From contig JAMYHL010000034.1 in NCBI GenBank assembly GCA_025531455.1, positions 370,037 to 434,036 on the forward strand: 64,000 nucleotides of DNA, read 5' to 3'. Source of the DNA: Apiotrichum sp. Y4204. Taxonomy: Eukaryota; Basidiomycota; Tremellomycetes; Trichosporonales; Trichosporonaceae. Made by a program: the position numbers and the translations under genes. Position 1 is the first letter of the stretch. Every line of letters begins with the position of its first letter. The notes below the pieces were generated by a model. It was not told the DNA's origin and did no database searches. It saw nothing but the letters and a program-made list of their open reading frames with translations. Below, piece by piece: positions 19,069 through 38,480 of this stretch.

Positions 19069-22000
19069 ACTGCAGAGAGTTAGTGACTCAACTCGTTGTG
19101 CGCGTAGTGCCCGATAGGCGACCCACCTGTGAGTGACTTGTTCTGTAGGAGATGCTCGGAATAGAGAGAAGAAGAAGCAGAGAAGGGAACTGAGGATTGA
19201 GAAGAAGAAATAGCGCGACAGAGGAAAAGAAAGAAAGGAGGAAAAGAAGGGGGAGCTGCTGTCCCAGTCGGTGACTGTGCTTTACCATACCTACACCTTA
19301 TAGTACGCTGGCCGCGCTGGCCGCAGGCCGCGGGCATGCTGGCGGGACGTGGGTGTGTATCAGGCTGCGAGCTAATGTGGAAGGCAAACACGGCTCATGG
19401 CCACTCAACCCACCGGGCACCGGGCGGGCGCGCGGGCGAAAGTACCCTGCGCCCCATCGTACGCTTTGTGGACGATGATCAAAGTCGAGATCGTCGAGAC
19501 GTCGAGAATCGCAGTTCAAAGATTTTCGCCTCGAGGATGTCGTGCGGTGACCACACCTCAGCCTCAGGCCTCTAGACTCTGGGCCTGAAGGGGACTTCAA
19601 GTTCTTGGTCACGTTGGCTTTGAGGGTTGCCGTGGGGGATTGGTGGGATGCGCGTGGCCCGGGTCTAGCGACCCCAAGCTCCTAAGGCAAAGCGAGGTGA
19701 CCTCGAGTCGGAGGTCTGCCAATGAATACCGGATGGCCTGATAAAGAGAGAACCGCCTCTTTCCTTATCATTTGTCGGGTCGACACCATGCGCTGTCAGC
19801 TTAAGTTTGCCTAAGCCTCTGACGCTCGATGTTCTACTGCGTTTTACCTCAGGCAAAACCTCTTGCGGCTCAAGACTCTCAAGATTGGACTACGCCCCAG
19901 CCATCAAAGAGACGATCCGCCCGGGCCCGAAGATCACCTCGCGGCCACCTCGCGACCACCTTGAGGCGGTGATCAAGATATAAGTATCGAGTAGTTGAGC
20001 CTCACTTGCCAGCAACTGCTGCAGCTTTGGCAGTTCGTGCCCCATCTCCGCACTGACGAAAGACCATTCTGCTTACCTCCATCGCGCAGACGAGTTTGCC
20101 TTTCTCGTAACTCGATGTGATGATATGAGAACATTGTCAAGCTTTAGAATCACACTTGCGACATGGGAGCTATGCACAAGTACTCGTGATTCCGGTACAA
20201 GAGCCTTCTGACGTGCCTGTACCATGCTCAGCAGGATCAAGATTTGTTCTGTTGAGCTTGGTATCGGGCATCCTTGGGACCAGGGGGTGGGACTTTAAAT
20301 CATCGTCAACCTACAACTTACCTGTAGATCCAAACCACACTCACGCAATCACGTCATTGACATTTTGCATGCATGTATCTGTATGCATGCTTGCGGACTT
20401 GCACAGCGTACAGCGGGGTCGTCAGCTTTTACAGACCGTCGAACGTTCAGCAATGCAGCAAACCCACGATTTCATTGCCGCGGCAGTGTGTGTTGCAGGG
20501 GGACCTTCATTTAGTAGTTCCAGGATCACAAGGCGGTACTGCCTTTGTTGCACCGCACAGGCAACTCCGACGCCAAGGTTGACGGGGACGGCGACAGTAG
20601 CTGCGGTACGCGGTACGATTGCCTCCTTGCGATCCTCGACACGTCGGTCACGTGACACATTCGCCATCTGCGTCATTGAAGTGGACGGATGCCGGAATTG
20701 ATACCAGCACACGAGTTAGAATTATGCATAACTAACTTATACTATTGAACGCAACGATAAGACCTCCGATTGGTTTTTGATGATGCTGCGGGTGGTTTGC
20801 ATTGGGGGACTGATTATTGAGAAATCAGGTTGCACCACAGGTCACAGACTACAAACGGATCGTAGCACTTGGACAATGACTCTTTTGCTGGAGAAAAGTG
20901 GGACTGACAGGCCTGACAGGTCCGCCGCTCGGCAGTGGTGTCCGACTTAGTTGCATGGTCGATCCCTTTAGCGTCTAGCTCTAGTCCGAACTAGTCTGTT
21001 TCAATAGTGAACTAGCGTTATCAAGGTCACTACTTGGTATACCTCTTGTTCCGCGTGTTTTGCCGAGTGAACTCTATTCTGGCAGGCCTAGAACAGCGCT
21101 ATCTTGCCCGTCGGCTGTCGGATGGGTTGCGGTCACCTGGCTACCAGCACCGCTCTTTCCAATAATGGCAAACGGTTTTGATGTCATCTGCAATTTGCTC
21201 GGGCAAGGGAAATTTCGGTGGCAGGTTTTCAGAAGCGGGATGACGTCTGAGGTCCAGCGCTGATAAAGCACACTAGCAGCTAGTGAACCGCAAGGCGGCA
21301 AGTCTCGTTCAAGATGGGGCCTGGAAAGGTCAGGCGAGCCAATAGCTGAGCTCGCTCTATGGCTAACCTGATCAGAGGACACACACTGGCTTAGGGGGCT
21401 GTATACCGCAGCCTACAATAGTGTTGGGCGTAACACTCGCGTACCACGAGGCAAGCGGCGCAGTGCAGTGTGCAGTGGAGGAGACCTTTGGGAGATGCCT
21501 GGCGAACGCACAATAGCTAAAGACGTCCAGACCCTGAGGTCGCTGCTGCGTTGAGTTGTAGCGCCCATGTTAGTTATTTAGATGCACTGCAGTTTCTCCG
21601 ACCTTGAGCAACGCCTGTAAGGTGGCTTGACAGCTTCCTAAACGTGGAGTACGTACGGCCGTCTTGGTGCAATGCGCAATGCCAGAGTCGGCCCACCTCA
21701 GGCGGCTGCTGAGGTTGTTGATTGTGGTGGTGATGATGAGGTGCTGCGCTATGGTCTCCCGGGCCGGCTGGTTCCCTGGGGTCCTTGCCCCTTGAAAGGC
21801 AATCTGACCATCTGTGCGTTTCAACTGGAAAGTAGGGTACGTAGGGTCGTGCGTGTGAACGGTTCTTTCTTGTCGCCACACCTGCACAGTAGATCATCTC
21901 TGCCTTCGCCCAGCTGCAGTTGTGGCTCGGTCCGATGTTATCGTGGAGTACGACTCACCCACCTTAACGGTGCGGCATACGGATGTTGTGTCCGAGCATG

Positions 22001-22352
22001 TCCGAACCAGAGTAGCGCAGTAGCCAGCTATAGCCACTTGGTCAACAGACAGTCGACGAATCAACGACGTGATACCTGAGCTCTGGTCCGCGGCAATAGC
22101 GCCACAGGGCCAGAGCATCCCTCACAAGTTTCACGAGGACTGTTCTGGGCCCCGTGAAGCGCAGCACGTACAGAACAAAAGAAAAACTAGCGTACGAAGC
22201 AAGATTGAAAGTCGCTTGGCTCTCATGCGCTCGCTTGTCGTGGTCCGAAAGTTTGTTGCGCGATTGCATAGCCACTGAACTAGTGTTGTCACACCAACTT
22301 ATGACGGTTTCAATAAAGGGAAAAAGAAGCAAGAAGCACAGTAGATTTACAT
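19069..22352. other. Gene-poor stretch, start of accessory region
   Basis: 3.3 kb in which all ORFs are short and overlap on both strands, with no splice-joined chain that I could recognise. Base composition becomes less GC-rich than in the flanking gene blocks. Purine-rich and CATG-rich patches occur (for example about 20365-20395). No transposase or reverse-transcriptase motif was seen. It contains the F-box-like gene's upstream region near 19069-19300. Confidence 0.45.
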
Positions 22353-22926
22353 TCAGACGATCAGACCGACAGAGCTCAGGAGCTCAGGAGGGGAATGAAG
22401 GCAACCGTTGGGTGCAGTAGCGTGCACCAGGCGATCCTCATCAATCGATGCCAACGCTGTCAGGCGCGACATGTACTTAGAAATGAGCATTGTCCAAGCA
22501 GATGACTTACCTCTGCGACGTCGGAGGCACCAAAGTCCGAGACAGGGCCGCGCGAGTAAATGGCGGCGCGGCCAGTGGCCCGAATGGCTTCTACAAGGAA
22601 CAGCATGGCCGCGTGCAGCATGATGGCCAGGTAGCTGAGGTGTTTCATCCCAAGGATGGCGCCCTTGTCTTCGAGTTTCACCGAATAGCCCTTCTCATAT
22701 TGCACACTGCGCATGTTGTTAGCGGTGCAGCACAGTTGGTGGTTGGGTCGTTCAACCAAGCTTACCCGGGGGGTGTCATCCACTGCGTCATAGCCTTATG
22801 GCGGCAGACGGGCTCGCCATAGTTATTGCCTTCGAGGTCGACAAACAATTGCGAGCCTCGCAGCAGTTGGACCGCCAATCGATGCATGAAATCGATGCCA
22901 TCGCTCGGGGTCCGTAGGCCGAACAT
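22353..22926 (-). CDS. Spo11-like copy A, N-terminal (tyrosine) module only
   Basis: Member of the local Spo11/topoisomerase VI-A-like family. Model: complement(join(22353..22475, 22511..22706, 22766..22926)), 159 aa; an upstream in-frame ATG at 22989 would add 21 residues. Residues GIDFMHRLAVQLLRGSQLFV with LEGNNYGEP align with copy B (GIRHVYGLIYAILRFTAPFV, LEGNYGEV). The second exon holds the candidate tyrosine motif TGRAAIYS, aligning with the yeast Spo11 pattern TVRDIFYS. Both introns sit where copy B has them, with the same phases (2, then 0); the second is 35 bp. The chain ends with TGA after a segment resembling the start of the next Spo11 block, so the TOPRIM domain is missing. It may be a truncated pseudogene or a single-module protein. 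Confidence 0.6.
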
Positions 22927-24357
22927 TGTCTTGAACAGTTGTAAACGGCGGAAGGGGACGGGAGAAGGTGAGAAGAAGACTGCGAGCAAAGTTCAGCACC
23001 GGACGCCGGAGGAAGGTGTTCACTGCGGTGAACATACTTACGAAGCCAGTTCTCACAGAGGTTCAAGCGACGGTCAACGTGTTGGAGGACGGCGACAAGA
23101 ATGGAAAGCTAGGATGACGGCGAGGAAATTAATGACGGTGAGTAGCTGAGTCCAAAAAGCATGAATGAGAACGGGTGTCGCAGATGGGACAGAAAAGAGA
23201 AAGGAAAATAAAAGAAACCAAACCTGCACTTTGGCCCACGCAACAATGAGCGAGTACAAGAACAAGGATTGCAGCTGGGAGCTGGGAGCTGAGAGCTGAG
23301 AGCTGAGGGCTAAGGGCTGCGACCTGCGGCCTGCCAAAGGCAGCTGAATTTCAGTAGGTTCTTATCGTCTGTCTTCCCTCTTGTTAGGAGAAGAGGGAAG
23401 ACACATTCAGCGAGGGAAGACAAGAAAAGAAGGAAGCAGAGGAAAAGCACGAAAGGCAGGAAGCTTTAGCGCTTTAGAGTTCTGATGCTGCTCAACTTGC
23501 AGGCCCTCGATCGTTGTCCTTCTTCTGATCTTCTGATCTGCACAGATTAGGGGCCTGATCTAGCTAATTTCTAACGCTCGACTGCGACTGGGCAAGGGAA
23601 GATTGGCGTTGAGCGCGAGATCCATTCCTCAATCCCTGTTGATCCACTAATCGATTGATTGACGAGAAGCACGTATGAGCCGTATGACTGGACAGCCGGC
23701 CAGCAGCTCAGCAGATCAGCAGGGGGCCGGGCACCTTGCGCGTTTTTAAGGGTGCCGCGCTTGCAATGGGCTACGTGGGAGCAACTGGAGATCGCGAGGG
23801 GCGCAAAACCCAAAAACAACTGCAATCTAGCCAGTAAGCTGGGACCCAAACGCTCAGACGTGAGCGCTTGCCACCCGAGGACGTACCGGACGCCAACGGG
23901 CCTGCCGCGCCTCCTGAGCATCCTACCCGACGGTCCGCACTGCACGAGCGTGCCGCCTGTGCACGCCTTGTGAAGCTTGTGCGAGCTTACAAGTTTACGA
24001 GGTCACGGGTCACAGAGTATAGGGTACGGCGGCTTACTGTAGCTGATGGGATCAGTGTGAATAATCGATTGGAACGTGCACCAGCCTGGCAGTAACATAA
24101 AAAAGACCAAAATCAAAAAAAAAAAAAAATCAGCCACGTTCTGGTGCGAGGTGCGACTACAGTCTGCGCTCGCAATACAGCTCTAGCACGATGCTGCGCG
24201 CTTACTGTAACTTGGAGCTCATTGCCTGTAGGTACATCTATGATCTATGAAGCTGAATGCACGGAATGAACTTTGTTTTTCATTTCCTAGCTCTCCTCGT
24301 CTTTTGTCCGACCGCAACTTCCTCGTCTCTTTTCATACGAGTCTCCTCACAACCAAA
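22927..24357. other. Gap between copies A and A'
   Basis: 1.4 kb holding the upstream regions of two oppositely oriented Spo11-like copies. A short GAGCTGA-type repeat occurs at about 23276-23316 and an A-rich run at about 24100-24130. Short ORFs on both strands show no recognisable features. Confidence 0.45.
24252..24271 (+). promoter_or_regulatory. Upstream element shared by Spo11-like copies (copy A')
   Basis: GCTGAATGCACGGAATGAAC lies 86 bp before the copy A' ATG. Close matches lie at 26083-26102 (copy B) and 34411-34430 (copy E), at 69 and 81 bp before their ATGs, each followed by a pyrimidine-rich tract. It may be a promoter element or simply a duplicated leader. Confidence 0.4.
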
Positions 24358-24797
24358 ATGGCCGGTTCTTCGTCAAGCCTACCCCTTCCCCCTCCCCTTC
24401 CCCCACGCCTACCCCAACCGTCGGAAAGTGTGGACCTTGAGCCCCACCTTGCACATCTTCCGAAGACCCCTGCCAACCGGGGCATTGGACACGTCCATGG
24501 TCTCGTCTATACTGCTCTGCGACTGTCGAGCCGGTTTGTCTCTCTTGAAGGCGACTATGGTCCCCTGATTCCACACACGGGGTTCCAAATGGTTGTTCCT
24601 CTCGTCAACGGGTAAGTTCATAAAGTTCGCGAAAGGAAAACAGCTGATCATGAAGCGACATCCGGAGGATTCCCTCCACCCATGTGTCCACAGCTTCTGC
24701 GCCAGGCCACATTTGTGCATTCCTGACCGTCCTATCGGAGCTCAGTGGCTGTATGGGTGAAGGCCTTGTCTTCAGTCGCAGAAGTGGTCAATACAAC

Positions 24798-25142
24798 TCA
24801 GACGACCATCAAGACCGCAGATGTTGTGGTCCGTGCACGAGCTGGAGGTCGTCCGGGGGCCATCTTTTCTTCTAGCGCGTACTGCACGTCGGCAGCCGTG
24901 GCCGTTCCACCTGGGCATGACCCGCTTAGAAGGTGATCTGTGATGTTTGGTGGGTTCTTCCTCGTACCACAGCGCACGCATTGGTAATAACCGCCAGAGG
25001 GCAACATGGAGGGACCCAGCTGTCGGCCAGAAGGTTGGCGCGGGGGAGGTCGGGGTTTTGTCGGAAGAAGAGGGGGTCCAAAGTATATGTAGCCTACATC
25101 GCTGGATTCCGGTACTTCGTCGTCGTCCTCAACAAGGGGCAC
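24798..25142 (-). CDS. Small ORF with C2HC-like motif inside copy A' insertion
   Basis: A 114-aa minus-strand ORF spans the stretch that interrupts copy A' exon 2. It has an acidic start, a Pro-rich segment and a possible zinc-binding pattern C-x2-C-x12-H-x6-C (CVRCGTRKNPPNITDHLL, then SGSC), loosely like BED or C2HC fingers. No family is assigned. Its 3' end overlaps remnants of copy A' exon 2, so it may be chance. Expression or relatives elsewhere in the genome would be needed to call it a gene. Confidence 0.25.
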   Translation of the reverse strand: MPLVEDDDEVPESSDVGYIYFGPPLLPTKPRPPPRQPSGRQLGPSMLPSGGYYQCVRCGTRKNPPNITDHLLSGSCPGGTATAADVQYALEEKMAPGRPPARARTTTSAVLMVV

Positions 25143-25432
25143 ATCTGGGTGTCAGCCCAAACATAGAAGTTGTCAGCTACAATACAGTATGGTACTGTAC
25201 ATTGCGATTTTCCAGTGGTTCTATTACGAATTACGAGATAACACCATGCGTTTTAGAACCTTGACTACTTGGTCGATGCAGGACACTCCCCCGTTAATCT
25301 TGACCCTTGGGGCTTAGAGTAAGCATGTTCACTAAAGGAAAATGGCGATGCCGTGGACAATTGCCACGATGTACGAGCAGATAAGAGGTAGGTACATATA
25401 TACGTATGTATATGATTTGACCATGACACTTA

Positions 25433-25920
25433 CAGTAGTCGAAAGGTATTTGGTTGTCTAGTGGCGCGTTCACACAGTACCACCCCTAATTTGAAACCTC
25501 ATATCTTCTTTCACAGATCTCCAACAATGATGCAGAGAGGTGGAAAACGTAGCCAAAAATCGGAACAAGAGCCCCTCAAAAAATCAGATACATGCATAGC
25601 TTCACAAGCCTGGGAGAGTAGAAACAACTTCAGAAAAATGCCCAAAAATGCCAAAAAATGCGAAAATACCTGATATGTCGCATCAGTAGGGTCAGAATTG
25701 TCAGTGTGGCACCTCCTTACTTTCTCATTATCTTCATATCTTCTGCAATGCATGTACAAACCGCACAAAACTTGCATAGAATGCTCTCTGGGTATGCCGG
25801 ATGCTGATGGTGCATTGAAAACTGCATGGTGTCATTCAAAATTTTGAGTGGAACTAGGTAGAAGATGGGTGTCCAGGGTGGGAAATGACGGAAAGGCAAC
25901 TGAATACCTTTCGACTACTG
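25433..25920. mobile_element. Tc1/mariner-type MITE in a pseudogene intron
   Basis: A 488-bp non-coding element with terminal inverted repeats. The left end is CAGTAGTCGAAAGGTATT; the right end is its reverse complement, AATACCTTTCGACTACTG. The pairing extends to about 27 bp with three mismatches. A TA dinucleotide flanks each side (25431-25432 and 25921-25922), matching the TA target duplication and CAGT start usual for Tc1/mariner elements. The inside is AT-rich with no long ORF, so it would be non-autonomous. It sits in the third intron of copy A', enlarging it to 545 bp against 50 bp in copy B. Confidence 0.75.
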
Positions 25921-26082
25921 TACGTTACTGACGTTTCACAGGCTCACAGGGCGAGACTGTCCATGGCGATGAGATCGAAAGTATCTCTTGTGTCCAGGCT
26001 CCACAGGTCGTTCTCGTGTTCGAGCAACAAGTCAGCCCGCTCGGTGCCCACTACAACGTGAAGTTCTTTGCCTCTGCGTAGA

Positions 26083-26102
26083 GATGAATGCACGAAATAA
26101 AC
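26083..26102 (+). promoter_or_regulatory. Upstream element shared by Spo11-like copies (copy B)
   Basis: GATGAATGCACGAAATAAAC lies 69 bp before the copy B ATG and is followed by a CT-rich run (TCTTTCTTTCTCTTCTC). It matches elements before copies A' and E. Its function is unknown. Confidence 0.4.
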
Positions 26103-26171
26103 GTCGTCTTTCTTTCTCTTCTCTTTCTTCTACCAGCGTTCTTCACTTTTTGCTTCCAACACTCAAGTAAC

Positions 26172-26251
26172 ATGTCAGCCTCATCACCTTCCTCCAGTAT
26201 ACCGCCTACATCAAACCCCCCCTTCTCCTCCAGCCCACCCCCCTCCTGCAG

Positions 26252-26287
<36 letters not shown>

Positions 26288-27599
26288 GTCCCTTACTGCA
26301 GCGCCACAAGCGGCGCAAAACCTCTGGCGACGAGCCCCGTAGAACCGTCGACGGCCCCCGGCAGGTCGTCGACTACGAGCCTCATCTAAACTTCCTGCCG
26401 ACGACGCCTGATGCCCAGGGCATCAGGCATGTATACGGGCTCATCTACGCGATCCTGCGCTTCACCGCGCCGTTTGTGGCACTGGAGGGGAATTATGGCG
26501 AGGTGAGCCCGCACACCGCTATTAACGTCCAAATCTCTCCCGTCACCGAGTAAGTTTGTGATGGAAGCCAAACTGATCATGAAGGGACGGTGAGACGAAG
26601 ATCATCCCTGCCGCAAACACCGCGAAGGATACAGCCTCCAAGCAGATCCTTGGTCTCCTTGTGCTCCTCTCGGAGCTCGGTGGTTGCATGGGTCTTGGGC
26701 ATTTGTTTAGCCGCAGAGCCGGCATGTACAATGGCAAAGAGTATTACAACTTGGCCGAAAATACGATCTACGATGTAAGTACTCTGTGACATGTGGGACT
26801 GGAAACTCATGCGCTTCAGAATTTGAACGCCTTGGTGGATGCCGGACACTCCCCCATTAATCTTGGAGTGAGCATGCTGGCTACTGGAAAGTGGAAATGC
26901 CACGGCCTCACGATTACCACCATGTTCGGCCAGACCATGTCTGATGAGGTAGGTACAGTACATATATGAGCCTGATGTACAGTACTGACTTCTCACAGGG
27001 CGACATGTGCCACGCCGACGAAATTAAGAGCATTCGATGTGCCAACGCTCCCCAAGTCATCATAGTCTTCGAACACCCAGTGAGTACGCCCTGACAAGTA
27101 ATGTTCTGTGGCTGACAAGCAGCAACTGGCCGAAGCAATCACGAGAGGGCTTAACTCTATCCTTCACGGCCTCAAAGACGGTGTTTCAGTCATGATTATC
27201 GGAACACGCGGAACCCCCGATTTTTCCACTCTTTCCTTCATGCGTTTTGTGGCCAAGACATTTCCTCGCGCCTCCTGGGGCGTCCTTGTGGACATGGACC
27301 CAAGCGGCCTCAAAATTCTTACCGACGTCAAGAAGATTGTTCCTGGTCGCGTGGAATGGTTGGGGCTTCGGCCCAGCCACTGTCGGGAGCTCGATGTCGA
27401 CCTTGTAGTCGGGCAACCCCTGTCCAAGTCGGAAATATCGCAAATTTCTCAAACAAAACGCGACTTCAAGGACCTCACGGAGGAGCTGGATCTCCTCAAG
27501 AAGCAGAAAAGAAAATTGCACCTGGCTTCGATCGACATGATGGACTCGACCGCTTTTTGGTTTCAGCGGTGCTCCCCGTCGGATGAGGAAACTGTTTGA
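26172..27599 (+). CDS. Spo11-like copy B, most complete member (one-base frame break near start)
   Basis: Divergent relative of Spo11 / topoisomerase VI subunit A. Model: join(26172..26549, 26585..26774, 26820..26948, 26999..27079, 27120..27599); introns of 35, 45, 50 and 40 bp. A Ser/Pro-rich start runs into a 34-C tract. Downstream come VVDYEPHLNFLPTTP; the tyrosine motif FSRRAGMYNG, aligned with the Spo11 (T/S)xRDIxY block; NLNALVDAGHSPINLGV; the TOPRIM glutamate block VIIVFEHP; VMIIGTRGTPDFSTL; the metal-binding pattern VDMDPSGLKIL; WLGLRPSHCREL; and a tail resembling Spo11's end (PLSKSEIS...EELDLLKKQKR). Candidate catalytic residues (Tyr, Glu, Asp-x-Asp) are present. Exons sum to 3n+1: the ATG frame and the domain frame differ by one base across the C tract. 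It may be polymorphic, a sequencing error, or a young pseudogene. Confidence 0.72.
26252..26285 (+). repeat. C34 homopolymer inside copy B
   Basis: Thirty-four consecutive C residues encode polyproline in the N-terminus of copy B. The tract is one base away from a length that would keep the start ATG in frame with the conserved domains. Such tracts slip readily in replication and are also prone to sequencing error. Confidence 0.9.
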
Positions 27600-27843
27600 C
27601 CCACCCAAGCTCCCACCAGCTGTCCCACTTCCTCCACAGGTCCGTCGCGACGTGAAGATAGCTCGCGAATATTGGTCGAGCATCGCCAACCTCCCGGACC
27701 TGACGATCGAGGATCAACACAACCCGGCGGCTCCAAAACTTCCGGGCCAGCCCTCACGTGTTGGAAAGGGAAAAATGAAAACAGGGAAGAAGACAGCCAA
27801 GGGCAGGAAAAGTCGTAGACGAACCAGCAATAGCTCTCCTTAA
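27583..27843 (+). other. Overlapping basic C-terminal ORF after copy B
   Basis: An 86-codon open frame, offset from the copy B TOPRIM exon, runs through its stop and encodes a plausible protein tail: Pro-rich, then VRRDVKIAREYWSSIANL, then a Lys/Arg-rich end. It looks like a real C-terminus separated by a frameshift or an unrecognised intron. No clean donor/acceptor pair was found to join it. Confidence 0.35.
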
Positions 27844-28778
27844 AAACAACGCGGCAGTGCGTAGCAGGGAGAGTGATGGTTAGGTGGGTCGGATCAAACA
27901 TAGACCAAGCGCCTAGCTGACCGCTTAGGTCGCGTGGTTTACTGCACTTCACTTCATGGTTGCCAGTTGTCATTGCCTGTCGGTCTTGTGTCCGTTTCCG
28001 TTCTGTACCACACTCTTTAAAGAGCCCTCCGCTTCTGTGCGCTCTGTGCGTAAACGTAAACGTGAGGCCGCGCGGCCGCGTGAGGGGCGCAGTGTTGTAG
28101 TTGCAAAATACAACGCGATGAGATTAGTAACGTCCGATGCATGTTATCTTTGCCTGAAAACCCAACAAACTTTATCTAGTGGAGGATCTGAGTACGGCAG
28201 TCAACTCAGCTGCTGCCAGCACGATGCAGATTGCTCGTATGGGAAGACACTGAGAGTAACAGCTTTAACAGGAACATTCTTTGCGTGTCCCAACTGCCTA
28301 GACCTCTCCACGTAGCGATACTGTGGCGCTGCAGGGGTGTGGGGCTGTCGACTGGCCCCATGGCCCCGAGCTCCTGCGTAATAGCCTCCCTCCCTCTCAC
28401 GCCCTCAGCCATCTTGCGCCATCAGCTTGACTTGGGTTGTAAAAGCCAGCATAGAACCATTAGCTGTAGTCTGGTCGTTTCGACTTACAGTAGACTTATC
28501 CTGACGCATGGGCCTCCTGGCCAGTTCTGGGGTAGAGATCGACCCTAAAGGAGCCATACTGAGCAGCTGCGATACAGATACGCTACAATCACGATGCAGG
28601 TGTATGCTACAATCTTGAGTGTGCTGGCTAGACATACAGGCCAGTCACCGAATGCTTTTAGGGCGCTGTCCTTCAGTACGCTGTCTTTCGGTACGAGATG
28701 CCAGCACTATGGAACCACGCACATCACAGTGAGCACACCCGTCACCCTCGATGCTTCAAGCTGATTCTCAAACCATTG
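27844..28778. other. Gene-free interval after copy B
   Basis: 935 bp without recognisable genes. Near 28580-28629 it has a stretch resembling 37478-37520 (a doubled GCTACRAT motif followed by TCTTG and GTGTGCT). Otherwise nothing was seen. Confidence 0.4.
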
Positions 28779-28945
28779 TGGTGCCTATGGTACAGCAGTT
28801 AATAGACCTACAGCATTTCTGGCGTCTTAGTACCAGCTGCCCGACGGCTCTGAGCCTGGAGGACCTGTGTTCAATTCCCGTGTCCGGACACGGTCGAGTT
28901 GATTTGCGTCTTCGGACGCCCAGGTTGCTGCAAAGCACACCACAA
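28779..28945 (+). repeat. tRNA-like dispersed repeat, copy 1 (SINE candidate)
   Basis: About 167 bp that aligns along its length with 29737-29893. It carries an exact pol III A-box match (TGGTACAGCAG, 28788-28798) and a B-box match (GTTCAATTC, 28869-28877), 70 bp apart, too far for an intronless tRNA. A perfect hairpin GCGTC-TTCG-GACGC follows near 28906-28919. No foldable mature tRNA could be drawn. The best reading is a tRNA-derived retroelement or structured pol III RNA remnant. Confidence 0.5.
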
Positions 28946-29160
28946 GTCGTATCAGACGAGGCTGGTCGACGGTAAAACACAAAAAATATTATTTTTCCTA
29001 TTCTGCTGAGATATAGCTATCTGGCTAGCTGGCTTGCCGCGCTGGCCGCGATTGACGCAAGAAGGCCTGGCACCGCAAATGAGTTGGACAAGAATGTTGA
29101 ACAAGCTTAGTCCCTCCAGCGTGAAACGGAGACCATGCGCCGCACAGATTCTTTTCTCTC

Positions 29161-29393
29161 CCCAGCCAATATCGTGACTTCGATGACTTCAAAGTCAGGA
29201 TACACACCAGCAAGGACCCGTCCAACGGTGATTGTCAGCATCTGCCAGCGAAACGAGGATCTCTCCCAGGAGGCCAGGAGATGGTCTTTCTTCTGGAGAG
29301 GCTGAGTCTGTCATTTGGCAGGTGTATCGGTGACGGGACCAGTCGGCGTTTGTTTTCGAAAATGTCAAGCCTTCATCAACGCTCAACCACGCC
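29161..29393 (+). pseudogene. Spo11-like 3' fragment F1
   Basis: Nucleotide-level similarity to the 3' end of copy C (31459-31690): the CCCAGCCAAT(A/G)TCGTGAC block, GAAACGAGGATCTC near the middle, and GGTGACGGGACC...TTTTCGAAAATGTCAAGCC at the end. Several indels break the frame. It corresponds to the C-terminal helical tail after the TOPRIM domain. Confidence 0.65.
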
Positions 29394-29736
29394 AATCGTC
29401 GACACGAATCAGAATCACCTAAGAAACGCCCGACTTGCCCCCAATGCTCGGCCCGCCCGAGACCTTGCGTTGGGACATTGTTACCGTGTTGGTCTCCGCG
29501 TCGGAGGTTCCGCCCAATCATTGTGGTGCACTGAATTTGTGTCCCAGAATAAACGTCGTGCCCCAGCAACCGACTATACACCTGGACCTCCTCGACCGGA
29601 CCCTCCTTAGTCCAGCATACGCCCTCCCTAACATTGTTCAAGTGTTTTATCTTGTATCTTTTAGACATTGGAGAGTCATAAACACACCCTGTCGACATTC
29701 TTACGTGAGCGCTTCAGCCCCAAGACAGGCATGCAG

Positions 29737-29893
29737 TGGTGCCCAAGGCACAATGGTTATCAGATGTATACGGACGTCTTTTGTACCATTTGCCCAAAGG
29801 CTTCAGCCGGGGAGGGGGACCTGCGTTTGATTCCCGAAGCCGGAATTGATTTGCGTCTGCGGACGCCGCGGGCTGCTGCACAGGACACCACAT
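29737..29893 (+). repeat. tRNA-like dispersed repeat, copy 2 (SINE candidate)
   Basis: Second copy of the element at 28779. Its A-box region AGGCACAATGGTTATC resembles a tRNA D-arm. The B-box is GTTTGATTC (29825-29833), one base from consensus. The hairpin GCGTC-TGCG-GACGC is retained. The shared end (CTGCTGCA...ACACCAC) marks the 3' boundary of both copies. It lies upstream of fragment F2, as copy 1 lies upstream of F1. Confidence 0.5.
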
Positions 29894-30012
29894 GTTTTTT
29901 AAACCTGTTGAGATAAGCCACAGACATGTACAGACAGCGGAGACGGCGGCGGCGGCGCGTTTTACTGCGTGGGAAACTACCCGTAACCCTCGCTGCCGCT
30001 GCCGCATGTACA

Positions 30013-30100
30013 GTAAGGCAAGCGTCTTGGTGACGGGATCTGTCGGCGTTTGCTTCGGGAGATGTCGAGCTTTTATCGTTGTTGCACCACGACAACCGTC
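30013..30100 (+). pseudogene. Spo11-like 3' fragment F2
   Basis: Short stretch matching copy C around 31607-31690: AAGCGTCTTGGTGACGGGAT, then TGTCGGCGTTTG and ATGTCGAGC. It is a remnant only, with no usable frame. Confidence 0.55.
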
Positions 30101-30401
30101 GAACCCCATCGAGATCAACTTTAAACAGTCCGAAGCTGTCGTCGTCGCAACAAGTAAGTTGCATAGAGTAGTCTACAACGACTGGCGGTACTCATACACG
30201 GTGGAGCAAGGGACGGCGCAGAGAGTGGCGGTACGAGCGGCGGCGGAGGGATCATCGTCAACAGGAGCTGCCACCTTGTACAGTAGCCTGAGGCCGTCTC
30301 TGCGGGTAGTGGTACAAACCGGACCTGACTTGTTTTCCTTTGGAACAAACTTCATTTGTCTTCCTCTTCTCATCTTTCTTCCAACCTTCCATACTTCCAC
30401 G

Positions 30402-31706
30402 ATGTCCACCCCTCCAAGCTCCCCTCAAACTACGCCACCCAGCAGCCCCCAGCCCCCTTTGGAGGCCTCGCCAAGCAGTGGACCCCGAGCCACACTTGCC
30501 TTATATCCCAAACAACCCCATGAACCGTGGCATTCGCCACGTTTACGGCATTGCTCATGGGATCGTTCGCCAATCTTCTCGGTTTGTGGAGTTAGAGGGC
30601 GGCTACGGGGACACCGTCCCCCACGCCCAGATCAATATCGTCATCCCGTCCGCTAATGGGTGAGTCTATCGTAAGGGGGAAACTAACCAGGGAGGGAGAG
30701 CCGGACGATCCCGGCGCAGAACTCCTCCGAGAACTCCGCCGCCTCACAAATCCTGAGTTTGCTGGTGATGGTCTCGGAGCTGAGCACCTGTATGGGACTC
30801 AGCCTTTCGTACGCCCGTCGCTACGGGGGCTACAATGGCCAAGACACTCACAAACTTGCTCAGAAGGCGGCGTACCAGGTGAGTACTTTGCATCAAACAA
30901 GGATTTATCTCACGCTCCTCAGAATGTCGACTACCTGCTTGAAGCAGGCCACTCACCCGTCAGCCTAGGGGTGATCACGACTACTGGGTTTGATGGAGGT
31001 GTGCAAACACCACCATTCACACTCTCTACAATCAGAGGCTGTATGAGGAGGTATGTTTTAGACTTAGATTCACCCCCACTGACCTTGCACAGGCGGAGAT
31101 CTGCCACGCCGACGAAATCACCTGCATTGAGTGCAGTGCGGCCCCTGAGGCCATTCTGGTCTTTGAGCATCAGGTGAGTGCCCCGGACAGCCTGATTTAC
31201 ATACATTACTGACCGGCAGCTCCTCTTAGACGCAATGATGAAGGGGCGAAATTCCCTCCTCACCGGCAACGCTCGCGTTATGTTCGTCGCGACCCGCGGA
31301 AGGGCCGACTCTACTACGCTGAGCTTTCTCGGTAAAATGGCTGGAGACTTTTCCCATGCGTCTTGGGGTGTTTTGTGCGACATGGATGCCAACGGTATCA
31401 GCCTCCTTATCGCCATTCGGAAAATCGCCCCCAACGCAGAATGGGTGGGACTACGGCCCAGCCAATGTCGTGACGTCAAAGTCAGGACCAAAACGGGCCA
31501 GAAACCTTCGAACGCCGATCGTCAGCAGCTTGAACGCGTCGGTCAGGAAAACGAGGATCTCCTCGAGGAGATGGAGCTACTGCTGAAGCGAGGTCGTGGC
31601 TTTCATCTAGCAAGCGTATCAGTGACGGGATCTGTCGGCATTTGGTTCGAAAATGTCGAGCCTTCATCGACGCTCCACCACGCCCGTGGGAAGGCGAGGA
31701 ACAGCC
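30402..31706 (+). pseudogene. Spo11-like copy C (full-length layout, frameshifted)
   Basis: Exons as in copy B: 30402-30659, 30695-30878, 30923-31050, 31093-31173, 31220 onward; the first intron is 35 bp and exon 4 is 81 bp, as in B. A Ser/Pro-rich start (MSTPPSSPQTTPPSS) is one base out of frame with VDPEPHLPYIPNNP and GIRHVYGIAHGIV. The tyrosine exon is intact (YARRYGGYNG). Exon 3 has a second frameshift. The TOPRIM exon is an intact 591-bp frame: LVFEHQ, VMFVATRGRADSTTL, CDMDANGISLL, WVGLRPSQCRDV. It keeps Glu and Asp-x-Asp but has lost the Pro after Asp. The 3' end runs straight into fragment D. It is probably a pseudogene, although the TOPRIM part could be expressed alone. Confidence 0.7.
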
Positions 31707-32012
31707 AACCATGGGACATCTCCCCCGCAATGACACCAATACTCACGGTCTCAGTGAGGAGTCGATTCAAAACGACGTGGAGGTCCTGCTCGACGAGGGA
31801 CATTCCCTGAAAACGTCACGAGAAAGGGGGGGAGGTGGGAATGCACGGATACGACGCTTAGCACCATGTGTGGTCAAGTCGCGGTGGAAGAGGTATGTAC
31901 AATGCATGTGAAGCTGACGTTGCTCAGGGGGAGGTTCCAAATGCGGACGAAGTCATCCACATCCAAAGCCGCAACGCCCATTAGGTTGTCATTGTATATA
32001 CAGCCTTGTAAA
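31707..32012 (+). pseudogene. Spo11-like fragment D fused to copy C
   Basis: Similar to copy B from the end of exon 2 to exon 4: TMGHLPRND, GLSEESIQNDVEVLLDEGHS (B: NLAENTIYDNLNALVDAGHS), then a W-rich block, a retained intron (about 31892-31927) and GEVPNADEVIHIQSRNAH. Stops follow. The tyrosine segment is deleted, and the intron that B has between TIYD and NLN is absent here. Confidence 0.6.
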
Positions 32013-32572
32013 CCGTCGAGCCGATCAGTGTTTTGTCGAGGAGCCACAAAAACCATCCTCCGAGATATCGCGGCCGCCGAGTTTTTATTCATCATGCATG
32101 CAATAGAGCACCTAGACCTCCCAAACTTGCCAGGACGATTCAAAGGACCCTTATGTACGTTTATAAAATGCTTGCAGCGCTCTTTGCACTCAATATGGGA
32201 AATAACCTCCGCCAGCCTTAATGACTGCCTCTAGCCCTCTATAGTCTTCGGGCACACCTTCACTGCACAGTGGCGACCATGGCAAACTCCCTGAATTTAA
32301 TCAATGGTCAACTTCTGGACATGCTCTGACACGCGTCAGAATAGCTCTGCTGTCAGTGTCTGCACAGGAGCAGGTGCTGCCCAAGAGCCAAAATTCCTCA
32401 AAGATGAGGAATTGTTTGATTTTTGTACATTAACAGCGGATTTATGAACATTGCGCTACGGTGTTCTTCCGTATGACGATCGACAATGGGTGGTGACGAC
32501 GTACTGTAGGCAGCGGGGCCTGTCGCTCCTGGCGGGTTAGCGAAAGAGAGCCTTCTTTCACCCACCTCAATC
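32013..32572. other. Gap after fragment D
   Basis: 560 bp with no recognisable gene. It probably includes the 3' UTR of the minus-strand gene starting at 33492. Confidence 0.4.
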
Positions 32573-33492
32573 TCAAGGAATGCCGCCTGACCTGTCTCGA
32601 CAGGATTCATACCTAGCGCCCATGCTGCGCCTTCGACGCGCCTTAAGGGGGTCGTCGGTATCGGTTTTGTGCAACTGCATCCGTTCGAGGAGTTGCAGTC
32701 CGATTGACCGTCCAATCATGCCCTCCGTCGTCTTGACTTCCACTCGTGTCAGCTGATGAAGGGCGACTGAGACATGGACGAGTTCGACGTGGGGCCAGAG
32801 CTTGGCACAGCTCGTCATGGACCGCGCTAGCCTCTTGAACCTCTCGCCGCTCGTGATGGAAGTGCCGTGCGCTTCGGGATCGGTGGCATGATGATTGAAA
32901 ACCACTACTGTGGCGGTGGCGCCCATGGCCTCTGCAATGCTGTTAAGAGTTGTGAGCTCTGTTCCGAGCGCCGTTGGGCCCTCGAGAATTACTGTTGCGT
33001 AACGTCCTTCGAGGAGCTGCTGGAGAGCGTCGGTAGCGTTGACGTGTCGCCCATGATTCAGAGGGTTGCCGCGGAACCACGCCCGGCTGTTTGCTGAGCC
33101 TTGTCGAACACAGATACGCTCGACATCAATCTCGTGTCCCAGTCGAACGGCTAGTTTCTTAACGTCTTGATGCAGACGCCTAGCCTCCTGCTTGATTTGG
33201 TCATCGCTCAAGACGGGCGAGGTGGCGGACATGACCCTGCCCACAATGATTGCCCCCTCGAGAACGGCGGGGAGCTTGACAGGCTTCGTGTCTTGAATCA
33301 GCTCAAGGTAGAGTGCTGTTGAGCTCACCAATGTCCAGGGTGGCGACCAGCTGTTGCTCCATTTCCCCGTCTTGTTCGAGAGCGCCGAGCAGCTGCAAGA
33401 GCTTGTTCTTGGGCGAAGCTGGAGCTGGCGTGGAGCTGAACTCAGCAAGTGATAGAAGTGAAGGGATTCCAGAACACTCACTCGGTCGACAT
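32573..33492 (-). CDS. Three-exon protein of unknown function within the Spo11-like cluster
   Basis: Model: complement(join(32573..33291, 33329..33435, 33482..33492)), 278 aa. An 11-bp first exon (MST plus a split codon) is followed by introns of 46 and 37 bp with good donors (gtgagt, gtgagc) and CTGA-type branch sites. The spliced start MSTDSTPAPASPKNKLLQLL looks far more protein-like than the unspliced frame. Later sequence has alternating hydrophobic strands and helices (AVLEGAIIVGRVMSATSPVL; YATVILEGPTALGTELTTL; TATVVVFNHHATDPEAHG) and a basic tail (KARRRRSMGARY). I recognise no family. The ILEG...DPEAHG spacing faintly recalls a TOPRIM fold, but that is too weak to assign. It is flanked by Spo11-like copies D and E, so a functional link is possible but unproven. 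Confidence 0.6.
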
Positions 33493-34511
33493 CGCCGTAC
33501 TTTTTGTCAAAATTTTGGATAGAGAAGTGGTGAAATCCGAGAGAGAAGAGGTGTTGACCTCAATCCAAAGTTGAGAACCAGAGCATCTGTGGCCCAGAGT
33601 TGCTGAACCTGCTGTCGGACTTTCGACTGGGGATGACTGGACCTGACCGGATCACTGTAAATGTGTCTTCCCTCCTGCTCTTTATCCACTTTGCAGCGTA
33701 GTTGGTCTCCTTCCTTCATCATCACAGTCAAAATACGGATATACGGAGGTCACAATAATGATGATCGGATAGACGAAGTTGAGTACATGAGCGATAAAGT
33801 AAATACTCGCAAAGGTCTAAATACTGCAAAATTGCTGTTCATATAGTAGCTAGAATGGCTTAGTTGCCAGGGCATAAGTGGCAGAGCCGTAAGGGCTTTC
33901 AGGAGATGTCTTTTCCGGGTTAGCATGCTTTGTCACCCGATTCCTTGCCACACATCGAGTTGTGCACCAATGCTTGCCAAACCCGGTAAACATGCATTCT
34001 CATTGGTTCAGTACATGCTCACGAAGTTTAAGCATGATCGGTGCAGTATTGACTGAATAGAAGCAAAGCGCTTTTGCCGTGTTAAACCGGAAAACGTTTC
34101 CGGGTTAGCCGCCGTCGCGACTTCGATTCTCCCGATCACCTGTGCGCATCGTTCCAGACGGCCGCAAGCTCGATGCGTTTCAGCGAGCAAGAACGCAGTC
34201 CCAAATGGCCGTAATGGCTGTGGTGGCCTTGACGGCGTCATTGCAGCAACTCAGAAGCTCAGAGATTAGAGAACAGATACAGTCGAAGTCGCGTGCCGTA
34301 GCGACTTGGCCATTCTAGCTACTACTGTATATAAACAGCAGTTTAGCGATATTCACTTTCTCTGTCGCTCATGTACTCAACTTCGTCTTCCAGTTGTCGA
34401 GGGACAACCCGATAGATGCAGGAAACAAACGTCGCCTTCCTTTCCCTTTTTTTCTTTCTTCTTCTCTCATCCCTTTTTCTACTTTACTCTTTGAACCTCT
34501 AAAGGAGTAAC
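33493..34511. other. Intergenic region before copy E
   Basis: About 1 kb with no coding signal. It contains a hairpin CCGGAAA-ACG-TTTCCGG at about 34087-34103 and the shared family element at 34411-34430 followed by a CT-rich run. Confidence 0.45.
34411..34430 (+). promoter_or_regulatory. Upstream element shared by Spo11-like copies (copy E)
   Basis: GATAGATGCAGGAAACAAAC, 81 bp before the copy E ATG, matches the elements before copies A' and B and is likewise followed by pyrimidines. Confidence 0.4.
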
Positions 34512-35152
34512 ATGTCGAGTCCACCACCTACCCCAAGTCCTTCAAACTCGAGTTCGCCAGCTACTCCCAGCCCGCCAGCTGCTTCAAACCCGCGGCTGAG
34601 CCCCTTTCTCAAGTCGCGACAAACCGAGTATGAGCCACACCTGAGCTACCTGCCAAAGACCCCATAAGAAGCGCAGGGAATCCATCACATGTACGGGCTC
34701 ATCTACACAATCTTGAGACATACCGCACCGTTCGTGAGGCTGCAAGGCTCTTACGGGGACGTAAGCCCAAACACCGCCATCAATGTTTTGATCTCTCTAG
34801 TGCAGCCCGCTAGCTGCTTCAAGCCCGCGCCCGAGCCCCTTTCTCAAGTCCCGACAGACCTAATATGAGCCCCACCTGCGCTTCCTGAGAAAGACTCCCG
34901 AAGCGCAGGGGATCCGCCATATGTACGGTCTCATCTATGAAATCTTGAGACTTCCGGCCCCGTTCGTCAAGCCGCAAGGCTCTTACGGGGACGTCATCCC
35001 CCATACAGTCATTAACATCCTAATCTCTCCCGTAAAAGAGTAAGTTTGTGATGGAGGCTAGACTGACCATGAAGGGGTGGTGTCAGCAAAATCATTCCCG
35101 CCAGCTACACCTCCGCAAAGTCCTGTGCCGAGCAAATTCTCGGCTTATTGGT
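34512..35152 (+). pseudogene. Spo11-like copy E, truncated with internal duplication
   Basis: Starts with ATG and a Ser/Pro-rich segment in frame with TEYEPHLSYLPKTP, then an in-frame TAA directly after that motif. The rest of exon 1 (GIHHMYGLIYTILRHTAPFV; GSYGDVSPNTAINVLIS) is recognisable. A second copy of the same stretch follows in tandem (34570-34804 and 34805-35039, about 235 bp each). Next comes the usual intron start GTAAGTTTGTGATGGA and a short exon 2 piece (KIIPASYTSAKSCAEQILGL). Homology ends near 35150; the tyrosine motif and TOPRIM domain are lacking. Confidence 0.7.
34570..35039 (+). repeat. Tandem duplication (2 x about 235 bp) in copy E
   Basis: Two adjacent diverged copies of exon 1 of a Spo11-like gene, both starting GCCCGCYAGCTGCTTCAARC and ending near ATCTCTC. 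The second copy keeps the exon 1 splice donor. Confidence 0.75.
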
Positions 35153-36071
35153 GAGTGAAATGAGCGTACATGCACGTGCTGCTCTTCCTGTCGATAGCTA
35201 AAGCTCTGTAACCTGTAGTCTGTGACCCTCTGTACCTTAGGCAATGCGAGCAGAATAACCAGTTTTCTTCTTGCGAACAAGGTCCCCACTGTCGAACACC
35301 CCATTCGCCTAAATGTTCTTGTGTATCAGACTGGCAATTTCGAGCCCTCGCTCGCAGCTGTCTTTGCGCATCCGCGCAATGTACTTAAACCTTTGCGCAT
35401 CCGCGCAATGTACTTAAACGCAGAGCGATGGGCACATAGAGTAACAAAAAGCCACAGATATTCGGACCAGGGCGATCGGTGCAGCGGACCAGGAAGGCAA
35501 ATACTCCGATGCACTGCTGCCGTCGTCCATGCCAGTGATATAGAGGCGCACTTCAGCAAGAAAAGACATCATCAGGTGCTCAACTAATGGCCATGCAATG
35601 TCTTAATGGAAGAAACAGCATTGCGGATGCACCGGCCAGCATGCGACACTGACTGGCGGCGGAGTCATGCCATGCTTGGCAGCCGAGATGGCAACGGTAT
35701 ACCGTAGCAACAGAGTTCTGGCAGCACTGTCCGGTCCCCTGTACCGCTCATCTTGGCCCACAGGAAATCGGCGCATAACGAGTAGTGATCAGATCACGAA
35801 CCCTGCAAAGAGGACAACGCGCCTCTCCGCGAGTTTGGAGCAGCGTGAGGCGCCCAAAGCAGCGGCGTGTGGTGCTTGCATCCAGACACCAGTCTTGGGC
35901 TTTCCCCAAACAACCCACCTGCGGCGTGAGCTCACCCGCAGTCGTCTTGTCAGTATAAAGAAGGGCCTTGTAGTCCCAAGCGGTCAGACCAGACGTTGAA
36001 GCATCTGTGTGAGTATCCCGGGGGGAGATGTCAAAGGGGCTCAGCCAATCGCCGTTGCATACCGACTCCGA
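35153..36071. other. Gap between copy E and the oxidoreductase
   Basis: 919 bp with no convincing gene; it contains the 29-bp tandem repeat listed separately. The region marks the right edge of the Spo11-like cluster. Confidence 0.45.
35362..35419 (+). repeat. Perfect 29-bp tandem repeat, two units
   Basis: Units 35362-35390 and 35391-35419 are identical (starting CTTTGCGCATCCGCGCAATG). The duplication is recent or maintained; its role is unknown. Confidence 0.9.
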
Positions 36072-37172: not shown

Positions 37173-38480
37173 CGTTTGAGGGATATTGTCAGGTTGTGAG
37201 TGGTCGGTTGAGGTTTTGGTGCAATGGTGGCTGGTACAGTACGTCCGTATCGTGTCCGTTATGTCAGCGCTGTCTAACATGATGACGTCACACCTGCAAT
37301 TCGGGGGCCAAACTTAAACTGCAGGCCTGCAGGTTGAGGATGATGCGTGCAATTGAAGTGCGACCTCCCGAGGGGGGTCACAGCTTCCGGAGCTGCTGAG
37401 CTATGAAGCCATGTGCACCCCATTTGTTGAGATCGTTGAGAATGCGACTGGGGATTGCATGGGTATCATATTGTAAAGCTACGATATATACAGTATACGC
37501 TACGATCTTGCAGTGTGCTACCGTACGGTACATAAACATGTGTGCTCGCTATCGTATCCTTCTTGCGAACTGGCCTTTGGTGCGAGCACACTATGATATG
37601 AAGGAGCCAAGGGCGGAGTGACCTCATGGCTTGGATTCCCCCCAAGGCCGCGTAGTAAAACCAGTAATGCCCCGATGGCCTCAAGGTAGCACAACGAACG
37701 AGTCTTGAGCGGTATATAATGCTGCACAGGAACGATTCTGTGCTTAGAGCGCGGTCCTTTTTGCTGTAGAGTCACTGCGCCCATCGACGTGAAAACGTGG
37801 CATATGTGAGAAAGGGAATCGACCCACGCGGACATAGAGCTGCAAGATGCCTGATCTTCAAAGCGGGCTTATCGCATCGTTGGCCCCCGCGCACAAGAAC
37901 CTCCGTTTCGGCCTTGATCAGCCTTGACGTCAGCCACAAGTTCGATGGCGTCGTGGTGATAGTCTGATTCGACCCCCCAAGACCTCAGCGTGTTCGTCTT
38001 TTCCGATAGGCAGCGCACATCTATCTTGACACTGTCACCGTCCCGAATCGCCAGTGTGGTCCGCATACTGCCTACGATCCGTGAACCGATTGCCCGACGG
38101 GTGCTTCTTGCATAATCCCGACATGCATGCTTCACGCTACTTTTGTGCAACTGGGAGGTCGTTAGTGGGTCAGTCACGTGCCATTAAAGTTAGTGAAGAG
38201 TGGCCGTGGTGGGCGCGGCGGAGTTGAGATCTCTTATCCCGCCCCCTACTTCATCCGCATTCCTCGGCCTCGGCCTCGGCTCTCGGCTTCAGCCTCCGCT
38301 CCGCTCCGCTGTCTCCCCTCGCCACTCGTCCCACTACTCTTGGGACAAGAGCCCACTCTCAATTCTCGCCACTCGGCCTCGCCACTTCCCCCGGGGGCGC
38401 CAGCTACTCTCTTCCCCGCGTGTCCATTTCCCACTAGTGCATGTCTCGTCCTGCTGTGATTGCTGCTGCAGATTTTCCGA
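37173..38480. other. Gap between oxidoreductase and NDUFS7
   Basis: 1.3 kb containing the oxidoreductase promoter side (near 37173-37300) and the NDUFS7 3' UTR. The 37478-37520 stretch resembles 28580-28629. No further gene was recognised. Confidence 0.45.

Follow-up and report, generated by a model that had tools for sequence, protein, structure and literature searches.

Divergent SPO11-like genes and gene fragments clustered at a haplotype-variable locus of Apiotrichum sp. Y4204

Fungi are described as having a single SPO11 in the sections of PMC4071758 on this gene, and a 64,000 bp stretch of the Apiotrichum sp. Y4204 genome (the window; G000:C111:370037-434036, from an assembly of 48.9 Mb in 182 contigs) raises the question of what a series of Spo11-like genes and fragments lying side by side might be, and whether any of them could still act. 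A first-pass annotation, made from the sequence alone, had proposed a cluster of Spo11/topoisomerase VI-A-like genes here, and such a cluster is present. The reading preferred here, with a probability of about 0.68, is that its members are lineage-restricted, highly divergent SPO11 paralogues that come from a eukaryotic SPO11 and not from an archaeal Topo VI, and that they have undergone birth and death locally. The family consists of two subfamilies at one locus.

Copies were located by tblastn or repeat matches (Table 1), and Pfam scoring covered copies B and E. PF21180 (TOP6A-Spo11_Toprim, cut-off 24.1 bits) matches exon 5 of B (38.4 bits), spliced B (35.1 bits) and exon 5 of E (26.8 bits). 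A Spo11 hidden Markov model (HMM) was made from 118 sequences, namely the host SPO11 and the 117 of 120 listed database proteins that are 250-450 amino acids (aa) long. Copy B scores 38.8 bits with it, compared with a maximum of 5.3 among 200 shuffles of the full length and 200 of the tyrosine half, and exon 5 of E in the window scores 9.0 (best shuffle 1.1). The Toprim region of a subfamily 2 copy on C120, the contig carrying the other haplotype, scores 19.7 where 100 shuffles yield at most 0.4, and exon 5 of the C120 allele of E (-1.4) and the piece at C120:60033 (-3.7) are not above their own shuffles. Copy B and the host SPO11 are 27% identical over 126 columns (BLASTP, 4e-10), and local hhalign alignment of a seven-row family profile with Spo11 gives 98.0% probability (E 2e-13, columns 151-325). 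The metal-binding Glu and DxD of Toprim are found in B and in E of the window as FEH and DMD. Homology of this region to Topo VI-A/Spo11 is established at the level of sequence, and the first-pass assignment is upheld, as is its proposal that the motifs follow the order seen in Spo11.

The canonical SPO11 is separate from the cluster. Genome-wide, PF21180 identifies three places, copy B and the SPO11 genes of C10 and C161. Of the 9 kb compared between these two contigs, 6.8 kb align at about 92% and another 1.6 kb at 80-88%, and SPO11 is therefore read as one locus in two haplotypes. Among the matches listed, those nearest to the host SPO11 core are from Vanrija albida (62%) and Cutaneotrichosporon spelunceum (58%), which points to a host among the Trichosporonales basidiomycetes. 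The core of the C161 gene has six introns, one in phase 2 before the catalytic Tyr and five in phase 0, located 14, 32, 61 and 89 codons past this Tyr with one further on. Copy B carries phase 0 introns 15, 58 and 85 codons past its own Tyr, matching the host introns at 14, 61 and 89, and in both genes the last of these lies two residues past the Toprim Glu. Hence 3 of the 4 introns of B match 3 of the 6 core introns of the host gene in place and phase; the first was outside the comparison, as no position could be settled for an intron in the N-terminal part of the canonical gene. The chance of such agreement is 5e-5 to 2e-4 by a simple simulation in which the Tyr and Glu anchors are assumed. 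Introns 2-4 occupy the same places in B and E, as expected from the earlier claim that introns are common to the copies. Descent from a eukaryotic SPO11 is supported by the shared introns of these predicted genes.

The extreme divergence and the failure to find fungal relatives might point to an archaeal, bacterial or viral source, from which a gene of the Topo VI-A type would have been gained horizontally, but the three introns that agree with SPO11 in position and phase argue against it. In a database of 5.8 billion proteins, the host SPO11 retrieves 540 at E 1e-5 (120 listed) and copy B finds no relative at E 0.01 among 1,916 candidates. The family alignment finds none at E 10 or better among 7,631 candidates, with prokaryotes included in the database, and horizontal gain is considered very improbable. 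No annotated relative was found in these searches, and unannotated copies in other genomes are possible.

A number of results weigh against the preferred reading, beginning with the half of the protein that would carry the catalytic Tyr. Pfam finds no PF04406 (winged-helix) match in copy B, and the Spo11 HMM scores its tyrosine half at about -3 bits. A two-row profile of this half aligns locally in the linker only, with a score of 18.4 that is reached by 2/100 column shuffles under like settings and by 0/60 in an earlier null lacking one switch. In favour of that reading, the Tyr of B (SRRAGMY) falls, in the global hhalign alignment, on the second Tyr of Spo11 DVYY, which is the catalytic Tyr. 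The real global score is reached by 0/100 shuffles of columns 60-150, 1/100 of columns 0-150 and 9/100 when columns 72-125 alone are shuffled, and Tyr falls on Tyr in 2, 1 and 4 of 100 of these, respectively. Tyr is kept, among variable neighbours, in all four subfamily 1 copies with an exon 2 that reaches it (A, B and both E alleles), and the aligned place in subfamily 2, judged by eye, is without Tyr. There is modest support for the Tyr of B being at the Spo11 catalytic position, and the profile alignment points weakly to a winged-helix identity of this half. The first-pass tyrosine block is thus retained as an aligned position and not as a domain match.

Further points on this side concern the Toprim half, the gene model and phylogeny. 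The predicted structure of copy B exon 5 is poor (predicted local distance difference test, pLDDT, 44) and has no match in PDB at E 0.001, the small Toprim protein 2fcj being among the weak rows; phmmer against PDB sequences gave nothing relevant. DMN replaces DMD in the C120 allele of E and the piece at C120:60033-60218 (L027:6512-6859 and L027:3895-4218, both minus strand). Passages of PMC11302465 report a DxN variant for plant SPO11-2, and decay is a simpler cause of DxN in the two C120 copies than a change of the plant kind. The GT-AG introns of copy B (26550-26584, 26775-26819, 26949-26998 and 27080-27122; 35, 45, 50 and 43 bases) are predicted, and three of the six introns in the SPO11 core have no counterpart in B. 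Those that are shared are of an ancient kind, SPO11 intron positions being partly common to plants, animals and fungi according to sections of PMC4071758, and hence do not date the duplication. The exon 1 frame of B is unsure because this exon crosses a run of 34 C, across which the ATG frame differs from the conserved exon 1 frame. A tree built from 29 Toprim sequences, 26 being SPO11, fails to place the family, whose stem, at about 5 changes per column, has roughly ten times the length of the median end branch. Finally, most copies have stops, shifts or gaps.

Table 1. Features of the SPO11-like locus, with positions in the window.
Feature	Position	Strand	Basis
6,875 bp present in window haplotype and absent from C120; holds subfamily 2 fragment, A and B	21585..28459		haplotype alignment
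Subfamily 2 fragment: exon-1-like block (LEGNNYG) and tyrosine-region-like block	22505..22914	-	tblastn, translation
Copy A (A and A' of the first-pass annotation): exon 1, exon 2, start of exon 3, exon 4	24358..26030	+	tblastn/repeats
Copy B, five exons	26172..27599	+	PF21180 E 1.6e-9; splice model
Run of 34 C within copy B exon 1	26252..26285	+	sequence
Exon-5 3' fragment	29161..29393	+	tblastn pieces, 37-69% identity to E exon 5
Second exon-5 3' fragment	30018..30102	+	DNA-level repeat match only (families D6, D7); no tblastn match
Copy E, five exons	30402..31810	+	PF21180 5.9e-6; allele C120:63596-62356
Copies F1/F2: tandem duplicate of exon-1 block, then start of exon 2	34512..35168	+	repeats, tblastn; allele C120:49326-48933
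Site of 983 bp with subfamily 2 Toprim copy in other haplotype	37593..37594		haplotype alignment

Copies and fragments corresponding to the first-pass annotation were located, with some revision of the list; its C and D could each stand for more than one of the fragments. Copy A is made up of 24358-25357, with the Tyr of exon 2 within SRRSGQYN, followed by exon 4 at 25950-26030; breaks are present at about 24810-25256 and 25428-25925, and exon 5 was not found. A and A' are most simply a single copy of exons 1-4 broken by two inserted segments. All five exons are present only in B and E among the window copies. F1 and F2 are tandem exon 1 copies that precede the start of exon 2, and the F1 block has an in-frame stop. 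In the subfamily 2 fragment, the tyrosine-region block is 46% identical to the copy at C120:58246 (tblastn), the exon 1 block was assigned by eye, and a Toprim part was not found beside it. Exons 1 and 3 of E are frame-shifted in the window, where exon 5 is open with DMD, and in the C120 allele the break is in exon 5. B alone in subfamily 1 keeps exons 2-5 open with Tyr, Toprim Glu (FEH) and DxD (DMD). Its 34-C run, within a coding exon, is prone to slippage or assembly error.

The condition of the copies raises the alternative that the cluster is dead, an old SPO11 duplicate that expanded locally and is now represented by pseudogenes in varied decay with no present function. The origin it supposes overlaps with that of divergent paralogues, and the difference lies in present function. 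It is consistent with A, both E alleles, F1 and the fragments all carrying stops, frameshifts or gaps, with the failure to find an annotated relative, and with the ratio of non-synonymous to synonymous change (omega) between the E alleles, which is 0.42 (dN 0.066, dS 0.157) compared with 0.11, 0.08 and 0.02 for three flanking genes. However, exons 2-5 of B are open with their key residues, and the subfamily 2 Toprim frame on C120 is open over 321 aa. Omega between B and E is about 0.26 in exons 5 and 2 (dS 2.2 and 1.75; exon 1 is saturated), and between the E alleles non-synonymous changes still fall short of expectation (Fisher p 0.002, from rounded counts). From the omegas for B and E and for the E alleles, we infer a constrained past and a relaxed present. 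A wholly dead cluster is given a little under an even chance. If the copies are divergent paralogues, the family would have been under purifying selection for much of its history, judging from B and E at dS near saturation. Most of the copies seen are now broken or partial, and B alone is near-intact in subfamily 1.

Each flank of the locus aligns to C120 in one block, the two measuring 21.6 and 21.5 kb (window 1-21584 and 42474-64000; 93.9% and 91.7%; matches of at least 250 bases and >85%), and the region between them, 21.6-42.5 kb, is shuffled. Seven gaps are seen (window/C120 bases: 6,875/-7, -11/372, 3,005/13,107, 376/1, 5/411, 2/983 and 10/3,848). Copies A and B occur in the window haplotype only. 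A separate set lies at C120:45546-65273 in the other haplotype and includes a subfamily 2 gene at 58246-59340 (+), with its Toprim frame open at 58621-59340, another at 46239-45546, and fragments. The E alleles cease to align at the DNA level beyond window 31444 and C120:62611, inside exon 5, which suggests that the end of one allele derives from a paralogue. The two sets may represent haplotypes, if the strain is diploid or dikaryotic, or else the subgenomes of a hybrid; passages of PMC7026411 describe hybrids in this fungal family with a mean size of 40.5 Mb. The local birth and decay proposed in the first-pass annotation fits the different sets of the haplotypes and the broken or partial state of most copies. 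Turnover by tandem duplication, insertion and deletion would leave haplotypes with different sets, as is seen for the window and C120.

The haplotype-specific segments of 6,875, 983 and 3,848 bp have sharp ends, which could indicate a mobile or selfish element that inserts at the locus and has the Spo11-like gene as cargo or within its own coding part. A repeat beside copy F (33765-34395), with inverted ends of about 100 bases that are 71% alike and with relatives on C142, C7, C145, C110, C97 and C120, favours such an element. So does a second segment with inverted ends, of 32 bases, which interrupts copy A between exons 3 and 4 (25428-25925) and whose matches elsewhere are weak. However, whole-genome searches for an extra Spo11-like family, in which the best candidates were scored, gave matches only on C111 and C120 (20 by protein, 4 by DNA and 3 for subfamily 2) and none elsewhere in the 48.9 Mb. 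The 6,875 bp segment has TTAG at both ends, which are joined by none of the four inverted repeats found, and the 3,848 bp segment holds no Spo11-like copy at E 0.01 (tblastn). Two junctions, read by eye, share 4-6 bp, which fits microhomology-mediated deletion better than transposition. The selfish family suggested at first is not borne out, and a mobile element is an unlikely explanation. Overall, the cluster is judged to be a real family of SPO11 derivatives, unusual and restricted to its lineage, whose locus varies between haplotypes.

Other features of the region include an open reading frame of 328 aa (32573-33559, minus strand), which has no Pfam family and a predicted structure too poor to use (mean pLDDT 36); a likeness to NYN noticed by eye is not put forward as an assignment. 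Its only genome relatives found are at C120:36459-38846, inside the 3,848 bp without window counterpart and along its margin, adjoining a match of window 24817-25152. A 29-base unit is perfectly repeated in tandem, in two copies, at 35362-35419, and Rfam has no match at 20-38 kb. On the question of a mating-type locus, a homeobox search matched nowhere, controls included, and is therefore uninformative. Five gene names were taken for the flanking genes, presumably including AXL2. A text search of PMC6730849 finds neither these five nor SPO11.

Compared with fungal SPO11 (Rec12), the host gene included, the family shares a Toprim domain bearing Glu and DxD, the motif order and three introns that agree in position and phase, and has a Tyr whose alignment with the catalytic one is modestly supported. 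It differs in its low identity, long stem, absence of a PF04406 match and of three core introns, and in being multi-copy, haplotype-variable and mostly broken. No fungal SPO11 gene cluster turned up in the parts of the literature searched. The SPO11-1/SPO11-2 sets of plants, protists and amoebozoans likewise represent duplication of SPO11 within one genome, but are whole genes in known clades, whereas the family here is local, fast-evolving and mostly broken. SPO11-2 is reported only in plants and protists in the passages of PMC11302465, lineage-specific Spo11-1 duplicates in Entamoeba are noted in parts of PMC9198077, and the SPO11 passages seen in PMC6652019 concern the alga. Topo VI-A and Mini-A type enzymes, compared from partial descriptions and not by sequence, have a domain plan in common with the family but are prokaryotic genes (and plant SPO11-3).

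An intact protein of the family might form a DNA-binding Spo11-type dimer able to cleave via the exon 2 Tyr with Mg2+ held by the Toprim acids, although this prediction is doubtful; the next candidate role is that of a regulator of Spo11, or of a partner to it that does not cleave. It is quite improbable that copy B and its kin form a second fungal Spo11, active and haplotype-restricted, that cuts or marks its own neighbourhood, with the 34-C run possibly serving as an on/off switch. If this were true, the locus would both encode a break-making enzyme and be a focus of rearrangement.

SPO11 is regarded as constrained, because the breaks that it makes are dangerous, and the sections of PMC4071758 cited above treat it as single-copy in fungi. 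Local, haplotype-variable and fast-evolving derivatives would offer a natural setting in which to test how Spo11 paralogues originate and lose or change catalysis, and would also probe what a catalytically altered Spo11 can do.

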